Shown here: piece by piece, positions 12,286 to 34,839 of the stretch
Layout of the letters: the number at the start of each line of letters is the position of its first letter
Position numbering within the stretch: the stretch's first letter is position 1
Origin: Rhodopirellula bahusiensis
Lineage (GTDB): Bacteria; Planctomycetota; Planctomycetia; Pirellulales; Pirellulaceae
Reading direction: 5' to 3'
Assembly: GCF_002727185.1 (NCBI RefSeq)
Contig: NZ_NIZW01000007.1
Location: 1 to 64,000 of the forward strand
DNA: 64,000 nucleotides
Translations under genes and position numbers: made by a program
Notes under the pieces: generated by a model
Seen by the model: the letters and a program-made list of their open reading frames with translations, nothing else
What the model was told of the DNA's origin: nothing
Database searches by the model: none

Positions 12286-12322
12286 GAATGTTCGGCGTTG
12301 CGTCAACCAACGCCGAACATTC
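12286..12322. terminator. bidirectional hairpin terminator
   Basis: A perfect 15-bp stem (12286-12300 with 12308-12322) encloses a 7-nt loop. It lies between the convergent TadE-like gene and the coiled-coil gene and could end transcription from both sides. No long T run follows on either strand, so termination strength is uncertain. Confidence 0.65.
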
Positions 12323-19338: not shown

Positions 19339-19705
19339 GCCGAACCGAGGCTGATCAAACTCGATACCGACGCAGCGTTACGCTTTTACTGCGTTTCCGA
19401 TTCCTCGCCTGTCACCTCTCCCCCGACGAAGTTGGGGGAGAGGTCGGACCGAGCGTCCAGCGAGATCCGGGTGAGGGGGCCCGCTGCGTTCAAGACACAT
19501 GTTTTGTCGTATAGTCCCTCACGCGAACGGCACTTCCCAAAACCAACTTGAGAAAACGTGACTTGTTGATTCAAGCCAGAAATTAGCGGACATCAAAATC
19601 GCTGCCCCCTCAACACTCGAACACTCCGGGCGAAGCCTGCCCATCGCAGACGGCTCTCACGAACGAACCACGCCCGGGCAGCGGACCGCTTGGCGAGGAC
19701 GCGCG
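19339..19705. other. 367-bp intergenic region with a hairpin repeat
   Basis: Only the hairpin repeat near 19405-19480 stands out. Otherwise this gap between the oxidoreductase and the NosR-like gene, on the same strand, contains no supported gene. A promoter for the NosR-like gene is expected here but none was convincing. Confidence 0.4.
19405..19480. repeat. intergenic hairpin repeat (CCTCTCCCCC type)
   Basis: A perfect 11-bp stem (ACCTCTCCCCC at 19414-19424 with its complement at 19434-19444) encloses a 9-nt loop and is followed by GAGCGTCCAGCGAGATCCGG and a GTGAGGGGG tail. From memory, blocks of this form recur between genes in Rhodopirellula genomes. It is likely a short dispersed repeat, and it may also act as a terminator for the oxidoreductase gene. 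Confidence 0.55.
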
Positions 19706-27016: not shown

Positions 27017-27086
27017 GGTGTCCAATCGCCGCCCAATCCAAGCGTTGTGTGGTCAACCAATCGATCCCTCGCACCGAAAGCCCGTC

Positions 27087-29858
27087 ATGATTGCCACCAG
27101 CACCGATTGCCTGAGTGTCGAAGAATTGAACCGCTTGCTCGACGGACAACTCTCCAGTAACGAGTTCGATTCAGCATCCAAGCATGTTGATCAGTGCGAG
27201 CAATGCCAGTCACGCATCCCGGAAAAGTGGGACGCGTTGTCTCCAATTGCCAATGCGGACTCAGAGGAAGATTCCGTGCTGGCTGAGTCCGCCTGCCAAT
27301 TCGCGGTCGCTCAATTGATGACCGCAGGCGCCAAGGTTGCCCACACCTCCGCTGATCTCCCGATCGACCAAATCGGTCCGTACGAGATCCTCGGGCAACT
27401 CGGGCAGGGCGGAATGGGGATGGTGTGCTTGGCTCGTCACAACCGACTGAAACGGCAATGCGCGATCAAGTTGCTGCCCCCTCACCGAGTGATGGAACCC
27501 GGTTGGCTGGATCGTTTCGATCGAGAAATGACAACCATCGCGGCGTTGGAACATCCTGGAATCGTCCGTGCCACCGATGCGGGAACACACTCCGACTGGC
27601 ACTACTTGGTGATGGAATACTTGGACGGAATGGACGTCGGCAAGATCGCTCATCGACTGGGATCATTGCCGGTCGCGGACGCCTGCGAGATCGCTCGCCA
27701 GTCCGCCGTGGCACTGATGCACGTGCATGAGACGGGTTTGATCCACCGCGATGTGAAGCCATCCAATTTGATGCTCACGCGAGACGGAACCGTCAAACTT
27801 TTGGACCTGGGTTTGGTACTGGCGGGCGACGATCCGCTTGCCACCGACGACCGACTGACCACAGTGGGACACCTGATGGGCACCTTGCCCGCGATGTCGC
27901 CCGAACAATTGCTCGACAGTCGAAAAGTCCAACCAGTGTCTGACATCTATTCGCTTGGTGCGACCCTGTACCGTCTGATCTCAGGCCGTTGGCCGCAAGC
28001 AAACGAAGGCGGCCTGGCAGCACGAGTGTTGGCGATCACGAGCGAGTCCAATCGATCGACTCCGCTTCCACTGAGCCGTTTGGAATCGTCGGTCAAATCG
28101 GAACTCGAATCGTTCGTCGGTCAGATGATGCACCGGCAACCCGACCAGCGTCCCAGCGGATCAATCGTTGCCGAGCGACTTGCGACCTGGTCCGGCGAAG
28201 CCAACTTAAAAGCGTTGCTCAAGCGAGCGGAATCGACACCTGCATCCGATGCACCGATCACACCATCGCTCCCGCTGGCAACGAATCCCGCTTCGCCGCC
28301 ACCGGGCAACGGCAAACACACCTGGACCGCATGGCTGGGGCCGTTGGGATGGTTCGCGGCAGCTATCTTGCTGGCAACGGTCGTGATTCAAATCAAAACC
28401 GACAAGGGTCTGGTGACGGTGACCACAGACGGGAAAGACACGCAGGTTGCGGTTGAAAAGAACGTCCAAGATTCAACGGAAGAAACCGTATCACCTTCCA
28501 CCGAGAAATCGCTGACCGCAGATATCGAATCACCTGACAGCGAGAAGATTTATCTAGGCGAAAATCTCGATTATTGGCTGGGAGTCTTCCGTCGCGAACA
28601 ACAGATCGAACGCATCGGCCAAGCCATGCGAGCGGTTGAGTTGCTGTCTCGCAACACGCCCAAACGCGAAGAAGCCGCTCGAATCACGTTGGAATTGGCG
28701 AATGAGTACGGGACTCAAATCATCGATGACACTCCCGACCAAAATGGAGGCGGCTTTGGGGGACAAAGCTCTCCGAACCAACGGTTCATGGGCTATCTGA
28801 CGCAAACCTTTGACAACTACCTTCCAACCCCTGGACTTCGACCACTCGGGGAAACGCTGGCGGATGGCAATGAGAGGGCCCAGATCACGGCTATTTTGCT
28901 GCTGAATCACTTCGTTACGGGGGTCCATGTGAATGCCGTCTACGAAGGAAGATTGGAGACAGCAAAGGCCTCGTTTGCAACTGAAGCACTGACACCTGAA
29001 GGGAGAGTAACCATCGAAACCCTTCTCAAACAGATTGGAATCGCATCCGGTGAACTCAAGCCACTCGCCGCTGACGCCACCGCGAAGGATCGATATGCTA
29101 TGACTCCTGCAAGAGAAGCAGTTTCGTCTCGTGAAACCGCTTGGGTAACTGCCGTTCGAATCATCGAGATGTCTGGCCCAAAGATCTCTCCTCCGAGCTG
29201 GATCGCCGATTACGTCCAAGAGCAGGTTGATGAGGCGGTAGCTGACTACGAACATCGTGAGATCGATCCCGAGACAGAGCAGACCAAGTGGGATTACAGC
29301 GATCCCAATGCACCCTACGGTTTTTCTTCGGGTGGATTTGGTGGTGGACCTCAAATGATTACCACCCCCACCGACCCTGACTGGCTTTTGTCACGAGAGC
29401 TCTTCCTTTCGGCAATCGAAATGCGAAGGGAAGGTCGACTCGATTTGCCTATCCAGTTCGCAGCGGAGACGCTGGCCCATCCGCGCTTCAACTGGTACTC
29501 GATGGACGGTTCGTCCCTCAACGACTTGGTCCAAGCCTTGGCGACGATCGATCCGGAGGCTCCTTCCCTGATCGCCTTTCATCTCGACCGAAGCTTCCAA
29601 GAAATGGATCGCCAATACCAAGCCAGCCAGAACGCCGAATGGCTTCATCCGTTGACCTATTTTGGCCAGCGTCTCAAAGAGGGTCTGGCATCCGTCTACA
29701 CCACTCACGTCGAACAGCCCGAACAGGCCCACGATCGACTCGAGCGTCTGGTCAAGTCATTGCCCAATCTGTCGATGTACCAACAATCAACCGAAGGCAA
29801 CAAAGACATCTGGAACGCCATGCTAAACGACCTCAAACAGCGATTCGAAAGCGAGTGA
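27087..29858 (+). CDS. membrane Ser/Thr protein kinase with anti-sigma-like zinc finger
   Basis: Starts considered are GTG 27018 and ATG 27087; the ATG is preferred (923 residues). Residues about 30-45 hold a HVDQCEQC zf-HC2-like motif, as in anti-sigma factors. The kinase domain (about 98-370) has a Gly-rich loop LGQGGMGMV, the ATP Lys near 128 (AIK), HRDVKPSN with the catalytic Asp near 222, and DLG (rather than DFG) near 240. A single transmembrane helix lies near 415-435. The ~480-residue C-terminal part is extracytoplasmic, mostly helical, with no domain I can name. It is co-transcribed with the ECF factor and probably senses an envelope signal. Confidence 0.88.
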   Translation: MIATSTDCLSVEELNRLLDGQLSSNEFDSASKHVDQCEQCQSRIPEKWDALSPIANADSEEDSVLAESACQFAVAQLMTAGAKVAHTSADLPIDQIGPYEILGQLGQGGMGMVCLARHNRLKRQCAIKLLPPHRVMEPGWLDRFDREMTTIAALEHPGIVRATDAGTHSDWHYLVMEYLDGMDVGKIAHRLGSLPVADACEIARQSAVALMHVHETGLIHRDVKPSNLMLTRDGTVKLLDLGLVLAGDDPLATDDRLTTVGHLMGTLPAMSPEQLLDSRKVQPVSDIYSLGATLYRLISGRWPQANEGGLAARVLAITSESNRSTPLPLSRLESSVKSELESFVGQMMHRQPDQRPSGSIVAERLATWSGEANLKALLKRAESTPASDAPITPSLPLATNPASPPPGNGKHTWTAWLGPLGWFAAAILLATVVIQIKTDKGLVTVTTDGKDTQVAVEKNVQDSTEETVSPSTEKSLTADIESPDSEKIYLGENLDYWLGVFRREQQIERIGQAMRAVELLSRNTPKREEAARITLELANEYGTQIIDDTPDQNGGGFGGQSSPNQRFMGYLTQTFDNYLPTPGLRPLGETLADGNERAQITAILLLNHFVTGVHVNAVYEGRLETAKASFATEALTPEGRVTIETLLKQIGIASGELKPLAADATAKDRYAMTPAREAVSSRETAWVTAVRIIEMSGPKISPPSWIADYVQEQVDEAVADYEHREIDPETEQTKWDYSDPNAPYGFSSGGFGGGPQMITTPTDPDWLLSRELFLSAIEMRREGRLDLPIQFAAETLAHPRFNWYSMDGSSLNDLVQALATIDPEAPSLIAFHLDRSFQEMDRQYQASQNAEWLHPLTYFGQRLKEGLASVYTTHVEQPEQAHDRLERLVKSLPNLSMYQQSTEGNKDIWNAMLNDLKQRFESE

Positions 29859-29896
29859 CGGCGTCAGTCTGGATCTCCCCGACGAAGACTGTTTCA

Positions 29897-30002
29897 GGAA
29901 CACTAATCGGCGCTAATCGTACACTAATCTTCGAGGCAATCACTCTCCAGCTCACAACGATTAGTGTGCGATTAGTGTGCGATCAGAGAAGATTAGTGTT
30001 CC
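29897..30002. repeat. GATTAGTGTTCC element, unit A
   Basis: The 106-bp unit begins GGAACACTAATC (29897-29908) and ends with its perfect complement GATTAGTGTTCC (29991-30002). Inside, further copies of CACTAATC and GATTAGTGTGC make a long imperfect hairpin. Compared with unit B, it has one additional GATTAGTGTGC copy (tandem). The start of unit B is 230 nt further, in the same orientation. Confidence 0.8.
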
Positions 30003-30126
30003 CCCGCCTCCACCATCTCTGCAACACGGAATCCAACACAAAGAGTTGTCGCGAAGTACAAAACGCAAACTGCCTCGCCTAGCGACCTACGATCTCGCTG
30101 CAGATTGCCTGCCGGACGAATTTGAA

Positions 30127-30218
30127 GAACACTAATCGACGCTAATCGCACACTAATCTCCGGGGCAATCCGCCCCAATTCACAACCATTAGTGTGCGAT
30201 GAGAGAAGATTAGTGTTC
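30127..30218. repeat. GATTAGTGTTC element, unit B
   Basis: The 92-bp unit has terminal inverted repeats GAACACTAATC (30127-30137) and GATTAGTGTTC (30208-30218). The interior is closely related to unit A in its first 33 nt and last 20 nt. It ends 19 nt before the stop codon of the GxxExxY gene, so on that gene's transcript it would be the 3' structure. Confidence 0.8.
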
Positions 30219-30237
30219 CCCCCCGGCGTCCATCACC

Positions 30238-30630
30238 TCAATGACTTCGTTGGGAATGCAAATCATCGACCACGAATCGCTTCCATTCCAAATCACCCTT
30301 CTTTCCAAAGTTAATGAGGTAACCAACTCGCTTGCGGGCGATTCGCATGTAATTGAACAACTGAGCTTCATGATCCGAGCAAAGTTCTTTCAAAGCCTTC
30401 AGTTCGACTACGATTTCACCGAAAACTAGCAAGTCTGGTCGATACTTCGGAGTCAAAAGATGCTCCTTGAAGTAGACACTCAATTCAGATTGGGCGACAA
30501 ATGCGATCCCTCTCAACCCGAGCTCGACTTCCAAAGCTGACTGATAAATTTCCTCAGCCATTCCATAGCCAAGTTGGTTGTAGACCTCGAACGCGGCCCC
30601 CATCAGGTCGTAGCCTTCTTGTCTGAACAT
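30238..30630 (-). CDS. GxxExxY protein (PD-(D/E)XK-like)
   Basis: The ATG at 30630 is preferred over GTG 30639 because a purine-rich AGGTGGGG stretch precedes it. The 130-residue protein carries the signature GMAEEIY (G-x-x-E-x-x-Y) near residue 23 and a nuclease-like core: YRPDLLVFG, then VVELKALKEL with an acidic-x-Lys pair, matching the PD-(D/E)XK layout. GxxExxY proteins are common in planctomycetes and their role is not established. The gene's 3' end borders units A and B of the GATTAGTG element, and the inside-out copy lies 4.5 kb away. A repeat-associated nuclease is plausible but unproven. Confidence 0.85.
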   Translation of the reverse strand: MFRQEGYDLMGAAFEVYNQLGYGMAEEIYQSALEVELGLRGIAFVAQSELSVYFKEHLLTPKYRPDLLVFGEIVVELKALKELCSDHEAQLFNYMRIARKRVGYLINFGKKGDLEWKRFVVDDLHSQRSH

Positions 30631-30680
30631 GAACCCCACCTGGAACTGCGGATTGTAAGAATCCCCTGGCCCTCGAACCT

Positions 30681-30743: not shown

Positions 30744-31793
30744 TTACTCTGTGAGCACCATTTTGAGTTGCTCGATGGCGGTGGGCGACTCGACTGGCAA
30801 TGCGTCCGGGACGTGGAGTGGCAGGGTCACGGATCCGTCGCCTCGGATGACCATGGAGTTTGTCCAGGGACTCGCGGGCAAGAACGCTTTGACAAGTTCC
30901 ACCCCAGGGTCATGCCCGCCAATTTGAAGATCGACCGAACGATCGCCGGACGTTCGATGGCCAATCCCCACCAACCGAATCACAGGAGTGGAATCGACCT
31001 CTGAATCAGACATCATCGGCGAAAGCGATTCATTGGTCCGCCATGCATGAACGCTTCGCAGCGTCGCGGCGGGGTCCAAGGTCACGCAAACACACCGAGC
31101 CGACTCGTTGCGGCGGCGAGTGATTCGCGCCACCATCGCGGCGGTCATCTCCGCTTCGTCCGTATCAAACGCTCCGGGGCCGATCACGATCGCCGCGTAC
31201 TGGCTATCACGAAAATGGTTGGCCCGCGTTTGAAACTCGGAACCTTCTTCGTTCGCCTCCGGGTGCTCGATCGCGTGATGCATCCGGCCAGCGAAATCGG
31301 CGGTCCATCGTTCCCAACGCTTCACCTGTCGCTTGCCAACCGATGCACTGGAACCCGCGGACTCCAGACGCAGCTTCTCTTCCAAACGAGGCCAAGCCGG
31401 ATCGACTTCGCCGATCAACCAAACCAAATCGGCATGCGTGACGACTTCGGACAGCGTCGCCGCAACAATTCCATCTCGACGTGTGACCGTTCCGATGGCC
31501 TGGACCGAAGGATCCGTTTCGATTTCGACTTCGATCGCACCGTCGGATTGCCACTGGACCAATTGTCGGGCTGCGACCAGATCCACACCCGAAGTGATCA
31601 CGCGTATGGGTTGTTCGCCCGCAGCGATTTGGGCCAACGTCGCCTTGTCCGCGCGAGCCACTCGGTTCATCAACGAACCGGTGGACTCAACGATCTCGCA
31701 CCCGTTTGCTTGAACCGATCCGTCCATGTTCACCACGACATCGTCGCAATGCAGCGGGCACAACGGGCAAACAACACGAGACGGTTCGCTCAC
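30744..31793 (-). CDS. formylmethanofuran dehydrogenase subunit B-like protein
   Basis: The 349-residue product (GTG start at 31793) begins with VCPLCPLHCDDVVV, a Cys-rich N-terminal motif like that in FwdB/FhcB-type molybdopterin proteins. The rest is a divergent molybdopterin oxidoreductase-like body with a Rossmann-type segment. In planctomycetes such genes belong to the tetrahydromethanopterin C1 pathway, where the formyltransferase/hydrolase complex handles formyl groups. It overlaps the stop of the upstream heme-fusion gene by 4 nt (GTGA), so it is translationally coupled to it. Other complex subunits are not in this window. The assignment is probable, not certain. Confidence 0.6.
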   Translation of the reverse strand: MSEPSRVVCPLCPLHCDDVVVNMDGSVQANGCEIVESTGSLMNRVARADKATLAQIAAGEQPIRVITSGVDLVAARQLVQWQSDGAIEVEIETDPSVQAIGTVTRRDGIVAATLSEVVTHADLVWLIGEVDPAWPRLEEKLRLESAGSSASVGKRQVKRWERWTADFAGRMHHAIEHPEANEEGSEFQTRANHFRDSQYAAIVIGPGAFDTDEAEMTAAMVARITRRRNESARCVCVTLDPAATLRSVHAWRTNESLSPMMSDSEVDSTPVIRLVGIGHRTSGDRSVDLQIGGHDPGVELVKAFLPASPWTNSMVIRGDGSVTLPLHVPDALPVESPTAIEQLKMVLTE

Positions 31794-34621: not shown

Positions 34622-34839
34622 GGGCTTCCAAGCCTTTTTGTACCCCACATCTTTTGAGAGCCGCTTGCGTTGGGAATACAAGCGGTTTAAGACCAAACAT
34701 CCCTTGCCGAGGAATCATTAGTGTTTGATTAGCGGCGATTAGTGTTCCCTTGACCGCTCTGGTGGAACACTAATCCACTCTGATCGGACACTAATCTTTG
34801 GTGTTTCGAGATGTGGGGTATAAAAAGGCTTCCAAGCCC
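34622..34839. repeat. nested 30-bp inverted repeat (GGCTTCCAAGCC type)
   Basis: A 30-nt sequence at 34622-34651 matches the reverse complement of 34810-34839 at 27 of 30 positions. Right of it, near 34860-34880, another GGGCTTGGAAGCCC copy followed by AGCGTACG pairs with TTGTACGTTGGGCTTCC at the left end. The centre encloses the GATTAGTG element, so it looks like one repeat inserted into another. Confidence 0.75.
34727..34795. repeat. inside-out GATTAGTGTTCC element
   Basis: GATTAGTGTTCC (34737-34748) and GGAACACTAATC (34764-34775) form a perfect 12-bp inverted repeat with a 15-nt loop. Flanking copies (CATTAGTGTTTGATTAGC... left, ...TGATCGGACACTAATC right) extend the pairing imperfectly. 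The arms point inward, opposite to units A and B. Confidence 0.75.

Follow-up and report, generated by a model that had tools for sequence, protein, structure and literature searches.

A GxxExxY gene with a Cas4-like nuclease fold and its cognate palindromic units: a possible minimal repeat-propagating system in Rhodopirellula

The GxxExxY gene, its two units and a nearby MITE

The window, that is, the whole stretch of 64,000 nucleotides analysed here, lies at the start of contig 7; the genome comprises 7.78 Mb in 63 contigs. Between a protein kinase gene and a gene with a weak enzyme match it holds a GxxExxY gene and, 3′ of this gene, two related palindromic units (Table 1). The neighbours scanned by profile include the kinase, an enzyme-like gene, HemE/uroporphyrinogen synthase, TrmB and enoyl-CoA hydratase; no cas gene was found among the six scanned.

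Table 1. Features at and near the GxxExxY site, in window coordinates
Feature	Position	Strand	Remarks
Protein kinase gene	27018..29858	+	left border of the site; profile match and species comparison
Unit A	29897..30002		106 bp; <<< CTAATC-type heptads, interior, >>> GATTAG-type heptads
Unit B	30127..30218/30219		92 bp; design of unit A; 11-bp perfect ends
GxxExxY gene, putative Cas4-like PD-(D/E)XK nuclease	30238..30639	-	130-133 aa; PF13366, TIGR04256, structure model
Candidate catalytic residues of the window protein	E29, D69, E79-x-K81, Q93xxxY97		numbering of the 133-aa reading
Weak formylmethanofuran-dehydrogenase-B match	30744..31793	-	right border of the site; 27.6 bits, cut-off 327.8
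MITE	34632..34829		about 200 bp; terminal repeats GCCTTTTTGTACCCCACATCT / AGATGTGGGGTATAAAAAGGC
Inside-out GATTAG core (>>> N15 <<<)	34716..34796		inside the MITE

The earlier note on this DNA had described units of 106 and 92 bp with perfect 12- and 11-bp terminal inverted repeats, and re-deriving coordinates and arms returned the same elements. The perfect arms of unit A are GGAACACTAATC/GATTAGTGTTCC; longer arms span 33 nt in unit A (85% complementary) and 31 nt in unit B (87%). The spacing of about 230 nt and the position 3′ of the gene are likewise as first described: the two units begin 229-230 nt from one another, and some 19 nt separate the end of unit B from the stop codon of the gene, which lies on the minus strand. 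Folding into long hairpins, also claimed for both units, stood up to shuffling, with DNA fold z-scores of -5.8 for unit A and -8.6 for unit B, and -6.6 for the copy at 34716-34796; none of 200 shuffles was as good. By a weaker measure, the best inverted repeat in 29881-30235 scores 20, which 1 of 300 shuffles reached; window tiles with an inverted repeat of at least 20 number 4 of 180, two of them containing these elements. Allowing up to one mismatch, GATTAGTGT has 16 occurrences in the window where 6.5 are expected, a count that none of 100 shuffles reached. Read by eye, both units are bounded by GGAAC/GTTCC and built of GATTAGTG-type heptads, and the GTAG tag of REP repeats is absent from them. 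Further strong palindromes of the window, at 12286-12322 (37 nt) and 19414-19444 (31 nt), are possibly terminators.

In profile searches at E 0.001, the window protein matched PF13366 (PDDEXK_3; 136.3 bits, cut-off 22) and TIGR04256 (GxxExxY; 128.5 bits, cut-off 35) only, with no match to HUH tyrosine transposases (Y1_Tnp, NF047646); a PADLOC match to Cas4 was weak (E 0.01). Among 44 aligned sequences E29, Y32, E79, K81, Q93 and Y97 are invariant and D69 nearly so, and G24, G26, E29, Y32, D69, E79, K81, Q93 and Y97 are kept in all eight members compared from different repeat classes. The resulting E...D...ExK...QxxxY is what we take to be the residue pattern of the Cas4 and lambda exonuclease families. 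Foldseek placed the AlphaFold2 model (pLDDT 92.3, pTM 0.86) closest, among PDB entries, to Cas4 SSO0001 (4ic1) and then to lambda exonuclease; the match to 4ic1 had E 3.6e-4 and TM 0.54 by query length, with a large alignment rmsd (12.5 for the top chain, 3.9 for chain G). The window protein resembles these two enzymes in fold and residue pattern and is smaller (133 aa against 202-228). Judged by residue pattern and modelled core fold, it is a Cas4/RecB-like member of the PD-(D/E)XK nuclease superfamily, which bears out the nuclease-like core that had been read from the sequence (profile matches, kept residues and Cas4-like model agree). A solved homologue by sequence was rejected, the best PDB match having E 0.28 and the profile search giving none, and a phage origin was rejected because tblastn against 50,697 phage records returned no match at 1e-5.

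Instead of the GTG at 30639, the gene may use the ATG at 30630 as its start codon; in weak support of this, the ATG is the start chosen by the script, and relatives such as L043 begin with M[FY]K.EGY. Its dN/dS was 0.08-0.10 against the copies in genomes G061 and G063, two of seven pairs being computable (dS was not computable in four, and one was impossible to align), and by these two pairs the gene is under purifying selection. The open-access literature names GxxExxY in passing. We found no report of activity for any member in open-access (PMC) literature and no description there of the gene-repeat system.

A related inside-out copy had furthermore been noted 4.5 kb away. The core is present at 34716-34796, but it sits inside a separate MITE of about 200 bp. 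MITEs are short, palindromic, non-autonomous dispersed copies, some of which arise via internal deletion. This inside-out form is the commonest one in the genome, where GATTAGTGTTCC has 43 exact copies against none for a reversed-pattern control. Among 20 cores of the form GATTAGTGTTC[CT]-N13-17-GGAACACTAATC in fetched stretches, 18 sit in a 177-178-bp repeat with ends of its own (ACCC.ACATC / GATGTGGG.T, extended by GCCTTTTTrT; the 177-178-bp core lies between ACCCCACATC-type ends), and cores with inner GTTCC..GGAAC are mostly within this MITE (18/20). Taking the 43 sites for about 20 copies of the gene's own unit was therefore rejected, as they are mostly MITE. Inside-out GATTAG cores with a similar, AAAACAGGCTGCGC-like spacer also occur in G066 (L227-L231), carried by other dispersed repeats and not by the MITE, as well as at L245 (G062) and L102 (G000), apparently one site. 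Recording how far the 12-bp arms lie from GxxExxY genes, a check that the earlier note had proposed, would mislead because most arms of this genome sit in a MITE with other ends; the opposite direction, from gene to repeat, works.

Repeats of GxxExxY genes across genomes

This genome holds four full GxxExxY genes and one fragment. Each full paralogue has a different flanking repeat, namely GATTAGTG in the window and CACGAAG, CACAGAG and CGCGGAG at the others, the latter three in tandem units of 214, 365 and 464 bp. Beyond this genome, 55 relatives of the window protein were gathered by protein similarity alone. At least two ATTAGYG lie within 700 nt of 51 of these 55 (shuffled flanks: mean 1.2 loci, maximum 3), the relatives not being independent and some loci being counted twice through one genome in two collections; the density is 5.19 per kb near the genes against 0.29 per kb far from them. 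The 51 loci span Planctomycetota, Verrucomicrobiota and Sumerlaeota. As to the four misses, L065 lies at a contig end, L090 shows none of the class, L084 has one ATTAGYG match and a GATCAG variant as its best inverted repeat, and L081 carries, by eye, GATCAGCG-type heptads. A frequent map is <<< >>> gene <<< >>>, in which the steps measure 10-11 or 20-21 nt; other loci show <<< gene >>> or repeats at one flank only, and long tandem arrays occur at L044, L073 and L077.

The gene was placed by motif at 136 loci, placement having failed at 11 of 147. An initial short-window hairpin scan gave a modest contrast (means 10.6-10.8 near, 7.9-8.0 far and 7.2-7.3 shuffled) and was replaced by a scan over both flanks together. 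Near and far windows were both available at 120 of the 136 loci; among these, the best inverted repeat reaches a score of at least 14 in 93 loci within 300 nt and in 21 at 800-1100 nt (Wilcoxon 3e-16). At the level of genomes, 199 members of the taxonomic family were scanned, 31 of which carry the clade (protein match with E no higher than 1e-38). At least four ATTAGYGN{2,3}GATYAGYG pairs were found in 24 of these carriers, seven having fewer, and in 19 of the 168 other genomes (Fisher 1.7e-13, kinship uncorrected). Of 60 genomes of the taxonomic family, 41 have a TIGR04256 match above the cut-off, and across Planctomycetota the GxxExxY family is patchy, with a match at E 1e-25 or better in 102 of 246 genomes and none in 144.

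The repeat classes share one build: a heptad of CRC plus 4 nt, about three per arm, in steps of 8-11 bp and arranged as palindromes. Phased heptads (score at least 2, steps 8-11, CRT allowed besides CRC) were scored near the gene at 92 of 136 loci, against 8 in far sequence and 22 in reversed near sequence; the form had been noticed by eye on loci that were later scored, and the scoring is therefore not an independent test. A heptad label could be given to all but 44 of the 136 loci, the unlabelled ones including the CGCGGAG paralogue of this genome (L011), and the cognate heptad stands on both sides within 350 nt at 73 of 87 labelled loci. The protein tree comprises 87 rows, 80 of them different, as some are one genome in two collections; the 44 unlabelled loci, four single odd labels and L162 (the same gene as L012) were left out. 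On this tree the variable 4 nt follow the protein: nine labels require 19 changes against a shuffled mean of 38.5, and none of 200 shuffles is as low. Rooted at the midpoint, the tree splits into the ..AG classes (with AGAT) on one side and TAAT, TGAT, GAAT and GAAA on the other, and just 10 of its 77 inner branches are starred. Clustering is pronounced for TAAT (5 changes against 28.8 shuffled) and present for GAAG (3 against 7.8), weak for AGAG (8 against 11.4), and absent for the small classes AAAG, GAAT and GAAA. GxxExxY genes are associated with, mostly bracketed by and co-vary with their repeats. The suggested link between nuclease gene and repeats is thus strongly supported, across phyla, by four paralogues with four repeats and by co-variation with the protein tree.

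Outside the phylum, eight plasmid-annotated records contain GxxExxY relatives, and in five of them the flanking repeats exceed all 60 mononucleotide shuffles; these are inverted in Bacteroides, Sphingomonas and Bernardetia and direct in Fusobacteria and Prevotella, the Sphingomonas flank having been set by hand inside the annotated CDS end and the CDS ends of two unannotated records guessed. No flanking repeat above shuffles was found in the remaining three (Treponema, Persicobacter, Gemmatirosa). A motif-pair scan limited to C[AG][CT] heptads gave a score of at least 2 in two of the eight (Bacteroides, Gemmatirosa). The Bacteroides and Sphingomonas records hold compact arm-gene-arm units: in Bacteroides finegoldii the gene lies between two inverted CACAGAG-type arms, with radA 59 nt and the next gene 44 nt away, and in Sphingomonas parapaucimobilis (L223, 1480-1908) it has CGCGAAG-type arms and stands between fabD and fabG. 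The direct-repeat records are L274 (Fusobacteria pZRK30-1) and L275 (Prevotella).

Other enzymes or host recombination might move and amplify the repeats, with the GxxExxY gene as their chance cargo. Unequal crossing-over can produce tandem arrays, and 18 of the 20 cores examined in this genome lie in a MITE with unrelated ends, both in keeping with a passenger gene. Chance cargo does not sit well, however, with a repeat class that tracks the protein tree and holds across phyla, with four paralogues bearing four different repeats, or with the compact units of Bacteroides and Sphingomonas, and we consider this explanation unlikely.

Variation among sites and incomplete gene copies

Sites with and without units were compared in a genus sample of 13 genomes. 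The window site, from the kinase to the next gene, holds two units in G000 and G061, three in G064 and one in G063. In G062 and G070 a RAYT-like gene with tandem palindromes stands in place of the units; its products match the REP-associated tyrosine transposase profile with 63 and 61 bits, below the cut-off of 80, and Y1_Tnp with 25.8 bits (G062) and 23 bits (G070) at a cut-off of 23. At these two loci (L138, L139) the RAYT/TIRYT-like gene and its AGAGTAGAACATTTGTCCCCAAATGTTC... palindromes follow the kinase, whose last codons are altered. Genes of the GATTAG class occupy three sites among the six carriers of the genus, those of G062 and G066 lying at other places.

The sites of the other paralogues vary as well. 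At the CACAGAG site this genome has a row of units, three deleted gene copies, the gene and a last unit, the deleted copies having lost 158 nt, a length measured on one of them, and with it the D, ExK and Q positions; G062 has a single solo unit there, G061 an apparently decayed unit, and other sequence is found in G064 and G070. The CACGAAG site of G062 holds one unit and no gene. The two halves of the CACGAAG-class locus match two distant places in G061 (L156, 91 kb; L157, 433 kb) with the break inside the gene, and a rearrangement between or at such elements therefore seems indicated. Unit number and gene content vary among species. For autonomous copies the comparison yielded no clean empty site with a target duplication; in its place stand solo units or other sequence, and gain is indistinguishable from loss. 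Insertion sequences carry a transposase gene between terminal inverted repeats and duplicate their target; the GxxExxY loci have inverted ends and only the nuclease gene inside, with no duplication found.

In the relative G037, contigs C13, C6 (twice) and C4 carry elements that contain a 3′ fragment of the gene; these elements are 94-96% alike, and the ExK motif is still present on all three contigs. Contig C1 carries two arrays about 425 kb apart and 97% alike, one with a full gene of 131 codons and the other with two copies of 68 codons, which share an in-frame deletion of 63 codons that removes E, D and ExK. Two borders fall exactly at the heptad array, namely the left one of the 68-codon site and the right one of L256 as compared with L254; in the few copies read, further borders of these copies lie away from heptads. 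The two 68-codon copies, L259 633 and 1074 (G037), have identical translations and could encode a short, binding-only protein.

Such variation bears on the idea that the system is domesticated, the phased heptads being operators or processing sites of a regulatory or chromosome-maintenance system and not mobile units; the protein would bind them so as to regulate its own gene or to organise or process DNA. Helical phasing would make the heptads iteron-like, unit B lies immediately 3′ of the gene, and the gene is under purifying selection. Against this, species of one genus differ at the site, where between one and three units are found; there are also dispersed fragments and copies without catalytic residues, and the family is patchy (102 of 246 genomes of the phylum with a match at E 1e-25). 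We regard domestication as unlikely too, slightly more so than a passenger gene.

Homing enzymes of the PD-(D/E)XK type are known, and the nuclease might instead cut unit-free or partial sites and be copied in by double-strand-break repair, leaving the repeats as scars or recognition sites. One intergenic site that is occupied or not, depending on the species, would agree with this, but carriers of the genus show three different sites among six. Recognition-like heptads moreover flank the gene itself, and a homing enzyme would therefore be expected to cut its own locus, which leaves homing-type drive improbable. A defence or CRISPR-adaptation-like role of a solo Cas4-like nuclease is the least probable of all, in spite of the Cas4 fold match and the weak PADLOC hit, given that no cas gene is among the identified neighbours and that array interiors are, by eye, homologous copies and not unrelated, variable spacers, on which ground a CRISPR-like array was rejected.

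A possible repeat-propagating element

We favour, with a probability of roughly 0.6, a minimal selfish repeat-propagating system in which a Cas4-like GxxExxY nuclease and its cognate palindromic units work in the manner of REPtrons or TIRtrons with an unrelated enzyme. Several protein subunits would bind the helically phased heptads of the two half-sites, and cutting of the unit would take place where the heptad array ends or close by (GGAAC/GTTCC in this class), with hairpin or single-stranded DNA as the probable substrate. Repair of the break from another copy could then add tandem units and seed solo units elsewhere; a gene between two units would be carried along, and dead copies might be mobilised in trans. 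The occurrence of units both in tandem arrays and as solo copies supports such a scheme, although host recombination between repeats could also yield tandem arrays and some dispersed copies. A repeat-moving system, as the earlier note had suggested, fits the dispersed, truncated and internally deleted copies, while cleavage and movement of the units by the GxxExxY protein are what we infer.

The papers on REP/RAYT systems describe inverted repeats that flank the gene and co-evolve with it, modular arrays in one third of cases, a correlation of gene presence with repeat number, and fast-evolving rayt genes (PMC2817692, PMC3116915). The likeness comprises a single small gene, inverted palindromic flanks, gene-repeat co-variation, modular tandem arrays and the correlation of number with gene. 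Two inverted flanking repeats that co-evolve with the gene are indeed what we find (both sides at 73 of 87 loci; 19 against 38.5 changes). By contrast, the enzyme here is a predicted Cas4-like PD-(D/E)XK nuclease and not a tyrosine transposase, the repeats are triads of phased heptads, and purifying selection acts on the GxxExxY gene in two pairs, unlike the reportedly fast evolution of rayt genes. The system is not a REPtron, because the enzyme differs and the GTAG tag is absent.

The paper on TIRtrons and TIRYT names R. baltica with regard to flanking repeats (PMC3733652). TIRtrons are similar in having a single gene between terminal inverted repeats that form dispersed families, and different in their enzyme, which is unrelated, and in the design of the repeats; in two sister species the window's own intergenic site is taken by a RAYT-like element. 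Casposons and Cas4 genes of mobile elements also tie a Cas4-family nuclease to mobile DNA (PMC4046053, PMC5704561), but no Cas1 lies beside the window gene (six neighbours scanned) and the unit is far smaller. MITEs share the short, palindromic dispersed copies; here no transposase is recognised, and the presumed helper is the nuclease. The novelty would lie in the enzyme and the repeat design, the mode of working being closest to REPtrons and TIRtrons.

More tentatively, at a shade below even chances in our view, GxxExxY elements might form a separate class of minimal mobile DNA with a modular code of CRC plus 4 nt, in about three phased copies per half-site, protein and code changing together. 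This class, with arm-flanked relatives in Bacteroidota, Pseudomonadota, Verrucomicrobiota and Sumerlaeota, might have seeded many of the anonymous repeats of CACAGAG, CACGAAG and CGCGGAG type in environmental genomes.

To our knowledge, bacterial repeat-spreading systems have so far been attributed to tyrosine (HUH), DDE or Cas1 enzymes. If the favoured reading is true, selfish DNA would have a different kind of engine in a Cas4-fold nuclease that co-varies with its own repeats, and a function could be given to a large family of proteins of unknown role. The co-varying 4-nt code provides many natural pairs of protein and target, and recognition is therefore directly testable. Repeat propagation by GxxExxY proteins could also explain much of the anonymous repetitive DNA in planctomycetes.
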